A DNA stretch of 64,000 nucleotides, from the NCBI RefSeq assembly GCF_900108095.1, contig NZ_FNWL01000002.1, positions 850,748 to 914,747 of the forward strand. The letters are read 5' to 3'. Within the stretch, counting starts at the first letter, position 1, and each line of letters opens with the position of its first letter. Below are positions 42,625 to 50,781 of the stretch, in pieces. The stretch comes from Natronorubrum sediminis. GTDB taxonomy: Archaea > Halobacteriota > Halobacteria > Halobacteriales > Natrialbaceae. The translations under genes were made by a program, and so were the position numbers. Under the pieces are notes generated by a model that was not told the DNA's origin, made no database searches, and saw only the letters and a list, made by a program, of their open reading frames with translations.

Positions 42625-43092
42625 ATGAGTGACACCTCGTGGACGGATCAGATCGTCGGCGCGCGCATGACCGTCGATCAGGAGTTCTCCTCGCGGATCG
42701 CAGACTCTCGCTTTAGCAACCAACAGTGGAGTCTGATCATGACCGCGACGGAGTTCGAAATCGAACAGCCAACAGATCCCGAGAACGCCCGAATCGTCGC
42801 CAACACGGAGAACGTCGAGCAGATCATCCCCGAACTCGAGAACATTCCGACGGGGATGGGTGCGATGGGCGGCGGCCCCGGCGGTCAGCAAGGAGGCTCC
42901 TCGAGTGGTGGCATTCTCGACTCGATTGTCGGTGCACTCGGCCTCGGCGGCGATGGCGACGACAACTCACACGCCGAACAGGAGCGAGCGGCCGAATCGC
43001 TCACACAGGAGTACGCCGAGCAGTTACAGGCCGAACTCGAGTCGAAGGGACGCTGGGACACGGTACGACAGGCCGCGGCGTCCGAGCAGTGA
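42625..43092 (+). CDS. DUF5799-like haloarchaeal protein
   Basis: A 155-residue soluble protein, DTSWTDQIVGARMTVDQEFS then SRFSNQQWSLIMTATEFEIE; a Gly/Ser-rich stretch (about 76-110) links to a helical end. I believe this is the haloarchaeal DUF5799 family, function unknown. Downstream of the carbonic anhydrase on the same strand. Confidence 0.65.
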   Translation: MSDTSWTDQIVGARMTVDQEFSSRIADSRFSNQQWSLIMTATEFEIEQPTDPENARIVANTENVEQIIPELENIPTGMGAMGGGPGGQQGGSSSGGILDSIVGALGLGGDGDDNSHAEQERAAESLTQEYAEQLQAELESKGRWDTVRQAAASEQ

Positions 43093-43698: not shown

Positions 43699-46600
43699 TT
43701 AGCCGAGAGATTCGGCGGGCGCAGGGTCGTCTGCCGTGTCGGGCGATTCTGGTTCCGCTGGTGGATCGATAGGTGGGACGTCTTCAGGCGGTCCGTCGTC
43801 GGTCGGTACATCATCCGGTGGTCCGTCGTCTGGTCCGTCGTCATCCGGCACGTCGTCATCCGGCACGTCGTCATCCGGCACATCGATCGGCGGACCGTCA
43901 TCATCCGGTTCCTCGCCCGGCACGCCATCCGGCGGCACTTCCTCCGGTGGACCGACCTCGTCTTCTGGCACCTCGTCCGGAAGCTCCTCATCCGGTACCT
44001 CATCTTCCTCAGGCACCCCCTCGTCAGTGTCGTCGATCGCTTCGATCGTCACCGACGCTTCGTCGTCTTCGGTGGCCACCGCGTGCGTCGACTCGCCTTC
44101 GGGGAGCGTCGATTGGAACGCGACCGTCTCCGACGCGCCTTCCTCGAGTTCGAGTGGCTGCTCGTCGATCGTGTCACCGTCGACGCTGTAGGTCACCGTC
44201 TGGCTGCCGGCATCGTCGCCGACGTTCTCGATGGTCGCACTCACGTCGATAGTCTCTCCGGGCTCACCGGTTTCGGGTGCCTCGAGCGAACTCACGGCGA
44301 ACTCGGCTTCGCCGGGTTCGTCGACCACGACCGTCGTGGCGTCCGTGTCGTCCTCGCTCGCGACAGACGCGGTGTACTCGCCAGCCTCGAGATCGGCCGT
44401 CTCGGCCGTGAGGGTCACTTCTTCGCCGTCCTCTGGCTCGAGTGAGAGGTCGGTTTCGTCGACCAGGTCGCCCTCGAGCGCCAGTTCGATGTTCTGGGTG
44501 TCCTCGGCGTCGCCGACGTTCTCGACGGTGGCAGTAACCTCGAGTGGCTCACCCGGTTCGACAGGGTCGTTCGTGTCGACGATCTCCACACCGAATTCGG
44601 CTTCGCCGGGTTCCTCGACCGTTATCGTCGTCTCGTCGGCGTCGTCGTCGCTCGAAACCGTCACAGCGTACTCACCGGCTTCGAGATCGTCGGTCTCGGC
44701 CGAAAGCGTCACCTCCTCACCCTCCTCTGGCTCGAGTTCGAGGTCGGTCGCGTCGACGGGTTCGTCCTCGAGTGCCAGTTCGATCTCCTGTTCACCCGCA
44801 TCGTCGCCCACGTTTTCGATCGCGGCGTCGATCTCGAGTGGCTCACCCGGTTCGACGGGATCGTTCGTGTCGACGATCTCCACGTCGAACTCGGCTTCCT
44901 CGGGGTCATCGGGTGCAATCTCGCCCGCTGGATCCGTCGCGGCGGGCTCGACTGCGTCCTCGTCGTAGTCGTAGATGCTCATGTCGACGCCCCAGACGAG
45001 TCGCTCGTCGTCGTCTTCGGGCGTCCACTCGACCGTGAACGTCTCCGTTCCGGGCTCGAGTTCGCTTGGCGGTTCGTCGTCGGTCGTTCCCTCGAGGAAC
45101 TCGCTGCCGACGATGAGTTCGCCGTCGTTTGGATTCTCGTAGCCGAACGTCACCGCGATACTGTCGTCGTTCGCTTCGGTGTCTTCGACGGTGAGGTCTG
45201 GCAGATCGGGTCGGACCTCTTCGACGCACTCGCTCGCGTCGGGGTTCGGGTGGTTGATCTCGCCCGGCACCGCATCTGGCGAGGAGAAGCCCGTAATCGC
45301 CGCGCCGAAGTCACCTTCGGGGACCGTCACGGTCGCACCGTCTGCCGTCTCCTCGACGGTGAACTCGTCGCCGGTTTCGTAGGTGATCGTGCCCTCGAGC
45401 GGTTCTTCGGTGTCCTCGCCGACCGTGATCGCGTACTCGCCGAGCGTGTTTCCAATGCCACTCGACTCGTAGAACGAGGTCGCGACGATAATCGTATCGC
45501 CGTCCTCGAACGAGCCGGTCACCTCGGCTTGCGTGCAGTCGACGAACGTCGCCTCGAACGGCTCCGTGTCGTCGTCGACGGTGTACTCGACCGTTTCGGA
45601 CGCGAGGACGCCGTCGTCAGTTTCGTTATCGTCTGTCTCGTCGTCAGCCGTCTCCGTTTCCGTATCCGTCTCGAGGTCGGTGTCCGCAGCCTCTTCGTCA
45701 TCGTCTGCACCGTCGGCCGCCTCGAGAGCGACCTCGAGCGTGGCGTCCTCCTCGAGCGGTGGCTCGAGGTCGATCGATTCTGGACCGACGGAGTCGTTCG
45801 CCTCGAACGCCTCGCTTTCACCCAGTTGCTCGCCGTCGTCGTCGCTCACGGTGAGTGCGAACGGAACGTCGGCGCTCGCTTCGTCGACCACGAGCGAGTC
45901 ACCCTCGCCCGTCTGGTCGCTCACCTCGAGAGTCGCCTCGGGGTCGGGGTCGGGTGGCTCATCCTCGAGTTCGTACTCGATCGAGTCGGTGGCGAGTTCC
46001 TCGCCCTCGTCGTCGACGACGGCCACGTCGACGATGGTGTCGTTCTCGATCGGTGGCTCGAGCGCGAGCGCGAAGTCGGTCTGCGTGTCGTTCGCGTCGA
46101 AGCGTTCGCTCTCGACCTGTTCGTCGTCGTACTCGGCCGTGACGGCGAAGTCCGTGTCAGCGCCTGCCTCGTCGACGACGAGCGTCTCGCCGTCACCCGT
46201 CTGATCGCTCACCTCGAGAACGGCCTCGGGATCCGGATCGTCGACCTCCTCGACCGTCACGAGTGCCGTGTCGAGCACCGGCGCGCCGTTCGGCGTCACG
46301 TACGGTTCGTCCTCCACGCCGTCAGACGCCGCGTACTCGAACGAGCCGTCGTCGGTGGTATCGTGGTGAGCCACCGCGACGAGCGTCTGGTCGTCCTCGA
46401 GTGGCTCCTCGAGGTCGATTTCGACGTCCGCGTGCTCGCCGGACTCGAGGAACTCCGAGACGCCGAGGACGGCGTCCGGATCGGCCACCGAATCGCCGGC
46501 GTAGATCGCGACGAAGCCGCCTTCGGAGAGTTCGACGCTGTCGACGACGACGCGTTCGCCGTCCTCGCGCTCTTGATCGGCGAAGGTGATCGATGCCTCG

Positions 46601-48288
46601 CCCTCGAGTTCGTCGATCACTTCGATTCGTTGCTCGAGTTCGATCTCGACGTACTGGGCGAGTTCGACGCCGTCGTCGATTCCTTCGGCGATGGCGTATG
46701 CGGTCGCGTCGCTCGCCGTGTCCTGCGTGAGCACCTGCAGTTGCGTGATGCTGATCTGTTGGTACTGGACGACCTTCGCAGTCTCCTGGCAGGCGCTGCT
46801 CGCGGCGATCTGTAGCTGTTCGACGGTCGCCTCCTGGTGTTGGACCAGAACGCCGCTCGCGCTGCCGGTCGCGAGTTTCTGGACCTGCGTGACGTCGACG
46901 ACCTGTTGTTGGACGACCGCGCCCTCGCCCGCACCGAACGCCGCGGCCTGAATCTGCTCGACTTCGACGACTTGCTCCTGTATCGCGCCTTCGATCGACC
47001 CTTCGGCGGCACCGACCGCAGCATACTGCAACTGCGAAATCGACACCTCCTGTTGCTGGACGAGGACGCCGCCCGCAGCCCCGTCAGCCGCGGCCTGGAC
47101 CTGCTCGACGGTCGCCTCCTGACTCTGGGAGATCGATCCCTTCGCCCCACCGAAGGAGGCTTCCTGAATCTGCGTGATCGAGACCCGCTGGACCTGCTCG
47201 ACGCTCACCGTCTGCACCTGCTTCAACGCGCCCGCGCTCGCGCCATGGGCCGCGGATTGGGTCTGCTCGACGCTCACCTCCTGTTGCTGGACGAGTGCGC
47301 CCTTCGCGCCGCCCGTCGCGGCCTTCTGGACTTGCTTGATGTCCACGCGTTGTTCTTGCTCGACGTCGATCCGCTGATCCTGCTCGAGCGCCGTTTCGGT
47401 CGAGCCGTCGAGCGCACCCGCCGACGCCCCCGCCGCGGCGTGTTGGACGTGCTCGAGCGTGACCTGCTGGCGCTGTTCGGCCGTGAGCTGTTGATGTTGC
47501 TCGAGGACGCCATAAGAGGCACCCTGTGCGGCTTCCTGTATCTTGGGCTTCTCGTCAATTTCCTTCTCGCCGGCCTCGGCGGCGGCACCGGCAGCGCCGC
47601 CGAAGGTCGCGACCTGAATCTGTTCGACGGCAACACGCTGTTCTTGTGCGAGCGCGCCGTGTGTCGCACCCCACGTCGCCGCCTGCATCTGGCTCGCCTC
47701 GACCGTCTGGTGTTGGGCGAGCGCGCCGTCGGTCGACCCGCCGACGGCAGCCTGAATCTGCTCGACGTCGACCCGCTGTTCTTGCATTAGCGAGCCGTGA
47801 ACCGCACCTTTCGCCGCCTCCTGGACCTGTTCGGCCTCGGCGTCTTGATGTTGGGCCGCCGACTCGCTCGCCGCCTCGAGTGCGGCGTCTCGCTGTTCTT
47901 GACTCACCTCGACGCCCTGCGATTGGGCCAGTTCGACGCCTTCGTCGATGCCGTCCTCGACGGCGTCATCGTCGGCGTCGGTGTCGATGTCGTCCCCATC
48001 ATCGGCGTCGTCTCCATCGTCCGTCTCAGCTCCATCGTCAGTGTCGTCCGTCTCGTCGACACCGTCGATTTCGACGGGGTCGTCTGTGTCGTCCTGTGCG
48101 AACGATGTCGGTGTCGCCGTCAGGTCACCGGCGTCAGCGTCGATCGCTCCAGCATCCGAACTGTCGGCGGCTTCACCGTCTGCAAACGGCGACACACTGC
48201 CGCTGATGACGGGCATCGCCAGCACGCTCGTCACCATCAAAAACGCGACGACGAGCACCGCCCCTGCCACACCTCGCTCACCAGTCAT
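43699..48288 (-). CDS. Giant surface protein with Gln/Gly/Ala repeats, DUF7282-like and CARDB domains
   Basis: A 1,529-residue protein. An N-terminal hydrophobic segment (residues 7-30) serves as signal or anchor. Next are an acidic linker (about 64-112), a repeat array (155-516, about 14 copies of a roughly 23-residue unit), three DUF7282-like beta domains (about 563-680, 686-772, 782-880), a further beta region with a Cys-containing segment, three CARDB beta-sandwiches of about 97 residues (roughly 1135-1430) and a Pro/Asp tail (1430-1529). No lipobox and no PGF-CTERM signal is visible, so anchoring is by the N-terminal helix or secretion. CARDB and DUF7282 are typical of haloarchaeal surface adhesins. 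The repeat array is described separately. No operon partners: bioY is divergent, the small gene convergent. Confidence 0.85.
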   Translation of the reverse strand: MTGERGVAGAVLVVAFLMVTSVLAMPVISGSVSPFADGEAADSSDAGAIDADAGDLTATPTSFAQDDTDDPVEIDGVDETDDTDDGAETDDGDDADDGDDIDTDADDDAVEDGIDEGVELAQSQGVEVSQEQRDAALEAASESAAQHQDAEAEQVQEAAKGAVHGSLMQEQRVDVEQIQAAVGGSTDGALAQHQTVEASQMQAATWGATHGALAQEQRVAVEQIQVATFGGAAGAAAEAGEKEIDEKPKIQEAAQGASYGVLEQHQQLTAEQRQQVTLEHVQHAAAGASAGALDGSTETALEQDQRIDVEQEQRVDIKQVQKAATGGAKGALVQQQEVSVEQTQSAAHGASAGALKQVQTVSVEQVQRVSITQIQEASFGGAKGSISQSQEATVEQVQAAADGAAGGVLVQQQEVSISQLQYAAVGAAEGSIEGAIQEQVVEVEQIQAAAFGAGEGAVVQQQVVDVTQVQKLATGSASGVLVQHQEATVEQLQIAASSACQETAKVVQYQQISITQLQVLTQDTASDATAYAIAEGIDDGVELAQYVEIELEQRIEVIDELEGEASITFADQEREDGERVVVDSVELSEGGFVAIYAGDSVADPDAVLGVSEFLESGEHADVEIDLEEPLEDDQTLVAVAHHDTTDDGSFEYAASDGVEDEPYVTPNGAPVLDTALVTVEEVDDPDPEAVLEVSDQTGDGETLVVDEAGADTDFAVTAEYDDEQVESERFDANDTQTDFALALEPPIENDTIVDVAVVDDEGEELATDSIEYELEDEPPDPDPEATLEVSDQTGEGDSLVVDEASADVPFALTVSDDDGEQLGESEAFEANDSVGPESIDLEPPLEEDATLEVALEAADGADDDEEAADTDLETDTETETADDETDDNETDDGVLASETVEYTVDDDTEPFEATFVDCTQAEVTGSFEDGDTIIVATSFYESSGIGNTLGEYAITVGEDTEEPLEGTITYETGDEFTVEETADGATVTVPEGDFGAAITGFSSPDAVPGEINHPNPDASECVEEVRPDLPDLTVEDTEANDDSIAVTFGYENPNDGELIVGSEFLEGTTDDEPPSELEPGTETFTVEWTPEDDDERLVWGVDMSIYDYDEDAVEPAATDPAGEIAPDDPEEAEFDVEIVDTNDPVEPGEPLEIDAAIENVGDDAGEQEIELALEDEPVDATDLELEPEEGEEVTLSAETDDLEAGEYAVTVSSDDDADETTITVEEPGEAEFGVEIVDTNDPVEPGEPLEVTATVENVGDAEDTQNIELALEGDLVDETDLSLEPEDGEEVTLTAETADLEAGEYTASVASEDDTDATTVVVDEPGEAEFAVSSLEAPETGEPGETIDVSATIENVGDDAGSQTVTYSVDGDTIDEQPLELEEGASETVAFQSTLPEGESTHAVATEDDEASVTIEAIDDTDEGVPEEDEVPDEELPDEVPEDEVGPPEEVPPDGVPGEEPDDDGPPIDVPDDDVPDDDVPDDDGPDDGPPDDVPTDDGPPEDVPPIDPPAEPESPDTADDPAPAESLG
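43836..43880 (-). repeat. Tandem 15-base repeat in surface-protein tail
   Basis: Three perfect consecutive copies of CGTCGTCATCCGGCA encode repeated VPDDD in the Pro/Asp-rich end of the surface protein. It is a length-variable type of site. Confidence 0.8.
46741..47826 (-). repeat. Array of about fourteen 23-residue Gln-rich repeats
   Basis: The unit is (I/V/L)QxAAxGAxxGALxQxQxVxVEQ. Core copies are 23 residues; others are 25-26, 31 or 39. Copies 5 and 8 are 31 residues, copy 6 is 39, i.e. steps of 8 made by adding VQRVSITQ-like elements. Conserved Ala/Gly face and Gln/Val face suggest a stacked strand or helix-strand repeat such as a solenoid. Confidence 0.85.
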
Positions 48289-48716
48289 GGCTCGAGTCTC
48301 CCCGCTGTCCCGCTCGCGAACCCAGCGCCCGTCGGCTCCGGCTGTCGCGGCTGTCGCTCCCGATGCGCCCCATCGAACCCGTGATCGTCTCTCATTGTCA
48401 CACTCTACCCTGGTTCTCTGACAGCGTGGCGAACGCGTGCTTAAGCTACCCCGGTCGTTTCAGTTAGGTGGCTGGCACAATCGCCCATTACGGCCCCCGA
48501 GACAGCCGAAATCACTCGAAAAAGCACATCCGAGGGAGACTGATAACAGTCGTCGAGGGGCTCGTGACAGTACTCCCACCAGACACGTGTCGACGGGAAT
48601 TGGTGTCTTTCAAGTGGCTATTCGACCACCTGGATCGGACTCGAGACGACAGAATTTCACCGATCACACATCTCGGAAACCGAAGTGTTGAACTTGGTTT
48701 ACGAGAGAGGACGGCC
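48289..48716. other. Promoter region between surface protein and bioY
   Basis: 428 bases. On the bioY side is the BirA-type dyad (48673-48704). On the other side, a GCTTAAGC palindrome at 48439-48446 could be a promoter element for the surface gene. In-frame upstream extension of bioY to about 48468 is possible but lacks membrane-protein character. Confidence 0.5.
48673..48704. promoter_or_regulatory. BirA-type biotin operator upstream of bioY
   Basis: TCGGAAACC (48673-48681), 14 bases, GGTTTACGA (48696-48704): an inverted repeat with one mismatch in nine. The arm sequence and the 14-base spacing match the published BirA box pattern, TTGTAAACC-N14/15-GGTTTACAA. It lies 13 bases before the bioY ATG (48717), the right place for repression by biotinoyl-AMP-bound BirA. 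Confidence 0.75.
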
Positions 48717-49304
48717 ATGGAAACTGAACAGGCTTCGGTGGACCTCGTCGAGGGCGACGTGGTTCGTCAGTTCGCTCGAGCGGCGGTACTCGCCGCGTTG
48801 CTCGGTGCCGTCGCTCCGATCGCGATTCCGTTGCCGCTGTCGCCAGCGCCAGTCACCTTGCAGGTACTGTTCGTCTTCCTCGCTGGCCTCGTTCTGGGGC
48901 CGGTCTGGGGGACGATTTCGATCCTCTTGTACCTCACCGCAGGGGCGATCGGATTGCCGGTCTTCTCGGGGCTCGAGGCCGGTCTCGGAACGTTGTTCGG
49001 CCAGACGGGGGGCTTCCTCTGGTCGTATCCACTCGCCACCGCCCTGATCGGACTGATCGTCCACCGCGGGACGAGCCTGCGCGATCCGGCCGCCGTGGCG
49101 CTACCGACCGTGATCGTCGCACTCGTCGCCGCGACGGTTCTCATCTACGCGATGGGTGCCGCCTACGCGGCCTGGCTCTTGGAACTCGAGGCCTGGGAAG
49201 CGATCGTCACCTTCGTGCTCTTTTTCGTCCCCGGAGAGCTACTCAAGATGGCCGCTGCGATTGCCATCGTCAGAAGTGGCCGCCTCGAGCCGATTCAATC
49301 GTGA
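48717..49304 (+). CDS. bioY: Biotin ECF transporter S component BioY
   Basis: A 195-residue membrane protein with about six helices. PLPLSPAPVTLQVLFVFLAG and the GLPVFSGLEAGLGTLFGQTGGFL stretch are BioY hallmarks that bind biotin. Works with BioM (ATPase) and BioN (transmembrane coupler), coded directly downstream. ATG 48717 is used; the BirA-type dyad immediately in front indicates biotin repression. Confidence 0.93.
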   Translation: METEQASVDLVEGDVVRQFARAAVLAALLGAVAPIAIPLPLSPAPVTLQVLFVFLAGLVLGPVWGTISILLYLTAGAIGLPVFSGLEAGLGTLFGQTGGFLWSYPLATALIGLIVHRGTSLRDPAAVALPTVIVALVAATVLIYAMGAAYAAWLLELEAWEAIVTFVLFFVPGELLKMAAAIAIVRSGRLEPIQS

Positions 49305-49344
49305 CGGGGCACACGAAAACGAGAACGCAGTACACGAGACCACA

Positions 49345-50049
49345 ATGATCGAATTCGACTCCGTCTCCCACGCCTTCGACGACGTCACCGTCCTCTCTGA
49401 CGTCTCGCTATCGATCGACGACGGGACGTTCGTCGTCCTCGCGGGAGCCAACGGCAGCGGCAAGACGACGCTCTTGCGTCACTGCAACGGCCTCCTGTCC
49501 CCGGAGTCGGGCACCGTGCTCGTCGACGGAACGCCCGTCGAAGACGACCTGATCGGTGCCCGCTCGAGCGTCGGCATGGTCTTTCAACACCCGCGGGATC
49601 AGTTCGTCGCCGCGACGGTCGGTGCCGACGTCGCCTTCGGCCCCGAAAATCTCGGCCTCTCGCGCGAGGAGATCGATCGCCGGGTCGAGGGTGCACTCGA
49701 GGCGGTCAACCTCGGCGGTCGCGAAGACGAACGGATCGAGCACCTCTCGGGCGGCGAGCAATCACGCGTCGCCATCGCGGGCGCACTCGCGATGAATCCG
49801 ACTCACCTCGTCCTCGACGAACCGTTTACTGGCCTCGACGCACCCGCCCGCCGATCCGTGCTCGCTCGCCTCGAGTCGCTCGTCGACGACGGGACGGGCG
49901 TCCTGCTCGCGACCCACGACCTGCGGGACGTGCGCGAACTCGCCGACCGAATCGTCGCCATGCGCGACGGCCGGGTTGTCGTGGACGGCCACCCCGACGC
50001 TGCACTCGCGGACCTCGCCGCACTCGAGGTGCGCGTTCCCGATCGGTAA
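49345..50049 (+). CDS. bioM: Biotin ECF transporter ATP-binding protein BioM
   Basis: A 234-residue ABC ATPase: Walker A AGANGSGKTT, Q-loop GMVFQHPRDQFVA, signature LSGGEQSRVAIAGAL, Walker B LVLDEPFTGLD, switch His in ATHDLRDV. It follows bioY and precedes bioN with short gaps, the standard BioMNY order here reversed to Y-M-N. ATG 49345 is preferred to an earlier frame extension because the ATPase strand begins there. Confidence 0.92.
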   Translation: MIEFDSVSHAFDDVTVLSDVSLSIDDGTFVVLAGANGSGKTTLLRHCNGLLSPESGTVLVDGTPVEDDLIGARSSVGMVFQHPRDQFVAATVGADVAFGPENLGLSREEIDRRVEGALEAVNLGGREDERIEHLSGGEQSRVAIAGALAMNPTHLVLDEPFTGLDAPARRSVLARLESLVDDGTGVLLATHDLRDVRELADRIVAMRDGRVVVDGHPDAALADLAALEVRVPDR

Positions 50050-50076
50050 GTTCGCTCAGTCACCGTACTCACTCCG

Positions 50077-50781
50077 ATGCTCACCTACGACCCCGACGAC
50101 ACGTTCGCCCACCGACTCGATCCGCGGTCCAAACTGGCCGTCCAGATCGGATTCGCAGCGACCGCGCTGGCTCACACCAGCCTGCGCGCACTGCTCGCGC
50201 TGAGTGTCGTGACGGCGATTATTCTGCTCGTCGCTCGCGTCCCCGTCCTCGAGGCGCTCTCCGCCTATCGGTTCGCGCTGGTCTTTCTGGTACTCGCGCC
50301 GCTAATCGCTGGCCTCACCCTCGGCTCGCCGTGGTTCGATCTCGCAGACGCCAACGACTCGGCTCGAGCGAGCTACCGGGTGCTCCTCATCTTGCTCGTC
50401 AGTGCCGCCTACATCCGTTCGACGCCGGTCCGAGCCTCTCGAGCGGCAATTCAACGCACGATTCCCGGAAAACCGGGCCAGATACTCGGAATCGGCGTCT
50501 CGCTCGTCTTTCGATTCCTGCCGGTCATCCGAGGCGACCTCCGAACGATCCGCGACGCCATGGCGGCCCGACTGGGCGGACAACGACGCGTCGTCGACCG
50601 CGCCAGCACGCTCGGAATTCTCGGGCTCACGTGGGCGTTCGACCGCGCGGACAGGCTCGCACTCGCCATGCAGGCACGCTGTTTCGCCTGGAATCCGACG
50701 CTGCCGCCGCTCTCGTTTTCCCGAACGGACTACGTCGCCCTCGCGGTCGCCGTCGGATTCGGACTGTCCGCGGTCATCTGA
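50077..50781 (+). CDS. bioN: Biotin ECF transporter transmembrane component BioN
   Basis: A 234-residue CbiQ/EcfT-type protein with about five to six membrane helices. The charged coupling region RASRAAIQRTIPGKPGQIL and ADRLALAMQARCF (EcfT ARG-like motif) contact the ATPase. It starts 27 bases after bioM and ends 3 bases before the convergent MOSC gene. Confidence 0.9.
   Translation: MLTYDPDDTFAHRLDPRSKLAVQIGFAATALAHTSLRALLALSVVTAIILLVARVPVLEALSAYRFALVFLVLAPLIAGLTLGSPWFDLADANDSARASYRVLLILLVSAAYIRSTPVRASRAAIQRTIPGKPGQILGIGVSLVFRFLPVIRGDLRTIRDAMAARLGGQRRVVDRASTLGILGLTWAFDRADRLALAMQARCFAWNPTLPPLSFSRTDYVALAVAVGFGLSAVI

Follow-up and report, generated by a model that had tools for sequence, protein, structure and literature searches.

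Organization of the locus

The 64,000-nucleotide window of Natronorubrum sediminis analysed here carries on its minus strand, at 43699..48288, a gene for an exported repeat protein of 1529 amino acids. The frame runs from ATG to stop, and orthologs begin at the same signal-like N-terminus. This N-terminus is a hydrophobic segment (residues 1-24, MTGERGVAGAVLVVAFLMVTSVLA, 48217..48288, minus strand), recognized by its hydropathy (19-residue maximum 2.63) and by the motif TSVxALPLLGG, conserved among the orthologs; export is predicted to be of Sec type. Further along the minus strand, a helical lead-in (residues 110-151, 47836..47961; AF2 helices with pLDDT about 77-86) stands ahead of an array of 14 repeats (about residues 154/155-516, 46741..47829), delimited by a position-specific scan, lag statistics and conservation in a 30-sequence alignment. 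Then come, on the same strand, a DUF7282 domain (residues 565-678, 46255..46596; Pfam PF23951, E 3.9e-35, 120.9 bits, cut-off 27) and three Ig-like CARDB domains (about residues 1132-1413, 44050..44895; PF07705, E 7.6e-18, 65 bits, cut-off 22.7, in three stretches), besides which the protein holds other probable Ig-like segments. A 294-bp tandem duplication at 44298-44898, with 79% matches, codes for two of the CARDB domains. The minus-strand gene closes with an Asp/Glu/Pro-rich C-terminal tail (residues 1421-1529, 43702..44028; D 28%, P 27%, E 16%), in which no membrane anchor is seen (C-terminal hydropathy maximum -0.98).

The first-pass annotation of this DNA had placed 14 copies at residues 155-516, with CARDB and DUF7282 domains beside them, in a haloarchaeal surface protein. 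All three statements hold: positions 46741-47826 encode exactly those residues and the scan recovers the copies, both domains lie above their Pfam cut-offs, and the reading as an exported, surface-type protein of a haloarchaeon is supported.

Long plus-strand ORFs opposite the array (e.g. 46837-47790) were rejected as a second gene and ascribed, by judgement, to high G+C content. Divergent from the repeat gene lies a transporter set of BioY-EcfA-EcfT type (48468-50781, plus strand), named by eye from sequence, and convergent with it lies a gene for a small protein with a Gly/Gln-rich centre (42625-43092, plus strand), which has no NCBIfam match. The bioY-ecfA-ecfT set adjoins the repeat gene in nearly all Natrialbaceae orthologs with enough flanking sequence, and the small Gly-rich gene is retained on the other side in most of them. 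Since these neighbours are conserved in Natrialbaceae, we regard the repeat gene as an ancestral chromosomal gene.

Distribution and conservation of the repeat family

The repeat protein is encoded by a single copy in its genome, and its best named relatives belong to Natronorubrum and other Natrialbaceae. Relatives are present in 103 of 125 Natrialbaceae genomes (93 of 111 among good-quality ones) and in 59 of 195 genomes of an order-wide sample. We are dealing with an unnamed repeat family that is near-universal in Natrialbaceae. A pattern-limited scan of all GTDB species representatives, which distant relatives could escape, gave matches only in haloarchaea. Export signals of Sec- or Tat-like type are found in relatives, together with surface domains, among them TSP3, DUF7282 and CARDB. 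Haladaptatus, Halorussus, Halobaculum, Halorarius and others have non-syntenic relatives, whose arrays are combined with TSP3 repeats, with DUF7282 repeats or with Thr-rich tails. Two shorter relatives within Natrialbaceae, likewise outside synteny, bear a Tat-like twin-arginine signal: one in Natronococcus pandeyae (L076:7411-10554), the other in Natronorubrum texcoconense (L088:9716-11383).

One relative is located on a Halomicrococcus plasmid contig; plasmid spread was rejected, no relative being detected in PLSDB by tblastn, and so was viral origin, with no relative among IMG/VR contigs and no consistent PHROG match. Pfam, NCBIfam, PHROGs and PDB sequences contain no family with consistent matches to the array, in line with the earlier remark that the repeat has no named family, and a search of the literature on the repeat or on DUF7282 in haloarchaea returned nothing about the repeat protein. 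We file the array as an unnamed repeat family within repetitive stalk or fibre proteins.

Identities at a lag of 23 residues number 96 of 347 in the array, compared with 38 +/- 5.5 in 2000 shuffles (shuffle maximum 59). At the DNA level, tandem repeat detection recovers only 2.5 copies, which indicates that the array is old. The same follows from comparison of individual copies: their mean best match is 75% to copies of orthologs and 61% to sister copies in the same protein, and copies that are nearer to their ortholog counterparts than to their sisters cannot belong to an array that is being homogenised. Most arrays of Natrialbaceae share 61-81% identity with that of Natronorubrum sediminis, with invariant Gly and Gln columns throughout the 30-sequence alignment. 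Over 370 codons, dN is 0.10-0.23 and dS 0.69-0.90, giving dN/dS of about 0.15-0.3. The array is thus a real, old and selected domain.

Anatomy of the repeat unit

The consensus of the unit is QIQxAAxGAAxGALxQxQxVxVE. Gln, Ala, Gly and Val make up 58% of the array and Pro 0.3%, while Asp and Glu together account for 12%, against 28% in the whole protein. Haloarchaeal surfaces exposed to salt are rarely so poor in acidic residues, and the composition fits a buried or self-associated surface.

The first-pass annotation had described regular periodic faces, and these are indeed present, in two forms. From position 15 to 26 the pattern is that of a strand, with a 180-degree alternation (p about 0.001): Gln16, Gln18, Val20, Val22, Gln1 and Gln3 are conserved, and odd positions are polar and variable. 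In the 23-residue class, Gln occupies positions 1, 3, 16 and 18 in 92-98% of copies. An independent mark of exposure is provided by the N-glycosylation sequons (N-x-S/T) of relatives: of 120 such sequons, 97 begin at position 21, and odd positions from 15 to 21 account for 116. Strand alternation and the exposed parity of the unit are established. The Natronorubrum sediminis array itself has no such sequons; two arrays from other haloarchaeal families (L027, L029) have one in about two thirds of their units (9-10 sequons per 14 copies).

In the other half, Gly8 and Gly12 are conserved at 99-100%, and Ala5, Ala9 and Ala13 are conserved as well. The four most variable positions, 4, 7, 11 and 15, form a narrow stripe along a single side of a helix (R 0.87, p 0.006, for positions chosen from the same data), and helix periodicity over positions 4-15 is weak when judged by Fourier power alone (permutation test, p 0.13). 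The GxxxG stripe of positions 4-15 makes a glycine-zipper-like, helix-like pattern, and a helix at about positions 4-14 is supported, if not proven.

Discrete lengths of the copies

The position-specific scan gives copy lengths of 23, 23, 23, 26, 31, 39, 23, 31, 23, 23, 26 and 23, followed by 23 and then 25, in agreement with the classes listed earlier (23, 25-26, 31, 39). Copy 14, of 25 residues, is degenerate and lacks GxxxG. Long copies differ from the others by extra units of eight residues: one in copy 5 (residues 272-279, QRQQVTLE, 47452..47475, minus strand), placed by the consensus of the 31-residue class; two in copy 6 (residues 303-318, 47335..47382, minus strand), placed by length-class consensus and comparison of ortholog lengths; and one in copy 8 (residues 365-372, QVQRVSIT, 47173..47196, minus strand), placed by the scan and class consensus. 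Copy 8 has 23-residue copies on either side.

We surveyed 1190 copies from 88 relatives. The spacings are 23 (644), 26 (182), 31 (143), 39 (41), 25 (31), 55 (7) and 47 (2), with little else; counted as distinct sequences, they are 23 (501), 26 (152), 31 (111), 39 (36), 25 (27), 55 (6) and 47 (2). These counts are not independent events, being shared among orthologs, and the absence of 30, 40 and neighbouring values is still clear. Copy lengths are thus discrete, following 23+8n (23, 31, 39, 47, 55) together with 26. In the 31- and 39-residue consensuses QxQxVxVE/QxQxVTIE is retained, with Gln at 86-100%, and the addition sits in the QxQxVxVx half. The first-pass annotation had proposed that the steps of eight repeat the second half of the unit as added strands; their strand-like character stands, but only the Gln/Val part QxQxVxVx is repeated. 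Likewise, the copies of 25-26 residues are real but represent a different change, of about three residues in the Ala/Gly half (GAAxGAAxxAxQxQ), rather than a step of eight. These +3 copies adjoin 23-residue copies that show no matching strand growth. Of 193 long copies, 76 stand alone in the chain, flanked by units of 23 to 26 residues rather than by another long copy.

Copy lengths are also constant across Natrialbaceae. The vector 23,23,23,26,31,39,23,31,23,23,26,23(,23) recurs unchanged in 27 of the 42 sequences compared from this family, and most of the variants listed depart from it only at copy 6. This copy is a length hotspot among orthologs (33, 34, 39, 41, 43, 47, 55), mostly in steps of eight; the other copies hold their lengths. 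Any structural model must satisfy the rule (23 + 8n, + 3), which limits the possible geometry strongly.

Structure prediction and comparison with known fibres

With 30 sequences as input, AF2 predicted that each 23 residues of the first repeats contain a helix some 16 residues long (pLDDT about 60-88), with pLDDT of 21-42 in the middle of the array. A second prediction, of residues 311-530 (220 residues) with 63 sequences, was mostly strand, with pLDDT 37 overall. The two models thus disagree, helices against strands, the second being of very low confidence and given no weight as to the fold. A Foldseek search with the first, weak model returned no match at E <= 0.001; the matches were mostly designed helical repeats at E >= 0.3.

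Two known fibre types resemble the array by analogy. In trimeric alpha/beta coiled coils, motifs of 6 or 9 residues (MATKDD, KADKAD) stand in a heptad background (eLife 2016, PMC4786415); like the array, such a fibre alternates helices with strand layers and allows regular insertions, but the strand cassette of the array has 8 residues, its helix face is Gly/Ala, and hexad or nonad motifs had no matches in any of the arrays. The triple-stranded beta-helix of T4 gp5 shares an 8-residue repeating unit, consisting of VxGxxxxx octads whose number sets the length of the trimeric rod (PMC4576200). Octads of the array, in contrast, alternate with helix-like segments, and VxG octads of the gp5 type had no matches in the arrays.

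Possible architecture of the array

We tentatively favour, at somewhat less than an even chance, the reading that the array is a surface stalk in which short helices and extended strands build an oligomeric rod. Each unit would consist of a glycine-zipper helix (about positions 4-14, AAxGAxxGAL) and an extended strand (about 15-26), the buried side of which would read Gln-Gln-Val-Val. Growth of the strand would be possible in complete QxQxVxVx cassettes of 8 residues and in no other way; the helix would grow by some 3 residues, roughly one turn. Given that +8 cassettes keep the buried pattern even where no long neighbour is available (76/193), we infer that each may pair with strands at the matching position of sister chains, that is, in an in-register parallel oligomer. 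In such a rod, bundles of small-residue helices would alternate with layers of strands, and the DUF7282 and Ig-like CARDB domains would be held out from the cell. Placed at the cell surface, such an oligomeric rod might serve as a putative spacer or in adhesion; the role suggested earlier, that of an adhesin or biofilm scaffold, is possible. Counting against the rod are the failure of AF2 in the array core, the strands of its second model, the weak Fourier signal for a helix and the absence of Foldseek matches at E <= 0.001; no partner gene was found either. It is doubtful whether one may go further and see here a new fibre architecture, a homo-oligomeric rod of zipper helices and in-register strand layers of 1 to 5 cassettes, forming a core surface component of Natrialbaceae. 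Should the rod reading be true, the array would add a modular type of fibre that could serve as a salt-stable scaffold of tunable length, and Natrialbaceae would have in it a candidate surface structure.

A monomeric alpha/beta solenoid, in which each coil of 23 residues goes up as a helix and returns as a strand of a parallel sheet, is the main rival and appears rather unlikely. Gln ladders would run along two corners around a Val core, small helix faces would pack on their neighbours, and +8 cassettes would protrude as arms. The dimensions are suitable, a helix of 14-16 residues (about 21-24 A) matching a strand of 7-8 residues (about 24-27 A); the 92-98% conservation of Gln at the four ladder positions is what ladders require, and in the first repeats of the AF2 model one helix recurs at each 23-residue step. 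Yet monomeric solenoids are usually folded well by AF2, which could not model the array core, the isolated +8 units keep their buried pattern with no long neighbour to stack on, and +3 helix copies lie next to 23-residue copies where strand growth does not match. Leucine-rich-repeat-like alpha/beta solenoids have units of 20-30 residues with one strand, one helix and a polar corner ladder. The array differs from them in having no leucine pattern and in its length steps of 8, and no family member has an LRR Pfam match.

A curli-like functional amyloid, or a fibre made of beta strands only, with Gln/Val ladders and Ala/Gly arches, is quite improbable. Curli-likeness had been raised in the first-pass annotation, and certain features speak for it: like CsgA and CsgB, the protein is exported and has Gln-containing repeats of about 22-23 residues, half of the unit shows strict strand alternation, and the second AF2 model, at its very low confidence, is mostly strand. 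Amyloid is reportedly treated at length, with 31 mentions, in a paper on Haloferax volcanii biofilms (PMC4180959), which we counted in favour of this explanation. A relationship to curli is nevertheless unsupported, and three tests exclude curli as a family. PF07012 (Curlin_rpt) does not match the array at E <= 10 and does match the E. coli control, hhalign of the array against CsgA gives a probability of 0.2%, and the consensus S-x5-Q-x-G-x-(x)-N-x-A-x3-Q is found in 0 of 88 relatives. Moreover, half of the unit (the variability stripe at positions 4-15) shows helical, not strand, periodicity, AF2 makes the first repeats helical at moderate confidence, the invariant GxxxG and the 8-residue QxQxVxVx steps are foreign to curli, and no csg-like partner gene was recognized among the conserved neighbours. 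The fixed copy lengths, 23 with steps of 8 or + 3, are suggestive of a rod-like stalk and not of a curli amyloid.

Finally, that the array is a low-complexity spacer, flexible and largely disordered, in which repeats do no more than set length, as low pLDDT over most of it and its simple composition (58% Q+A+G+V) might suggest, is very improbable in view of the conserved identity of single copies, the invariant Gly and Gln columns, the constant length vector in Natrialbaceae, the low dN/dS and the near absence of Pro.

In the Natronococcus pandeyae relative, nine spacings in a row measure exactly 26 residues, and so regular an array lends itself well to structure work.
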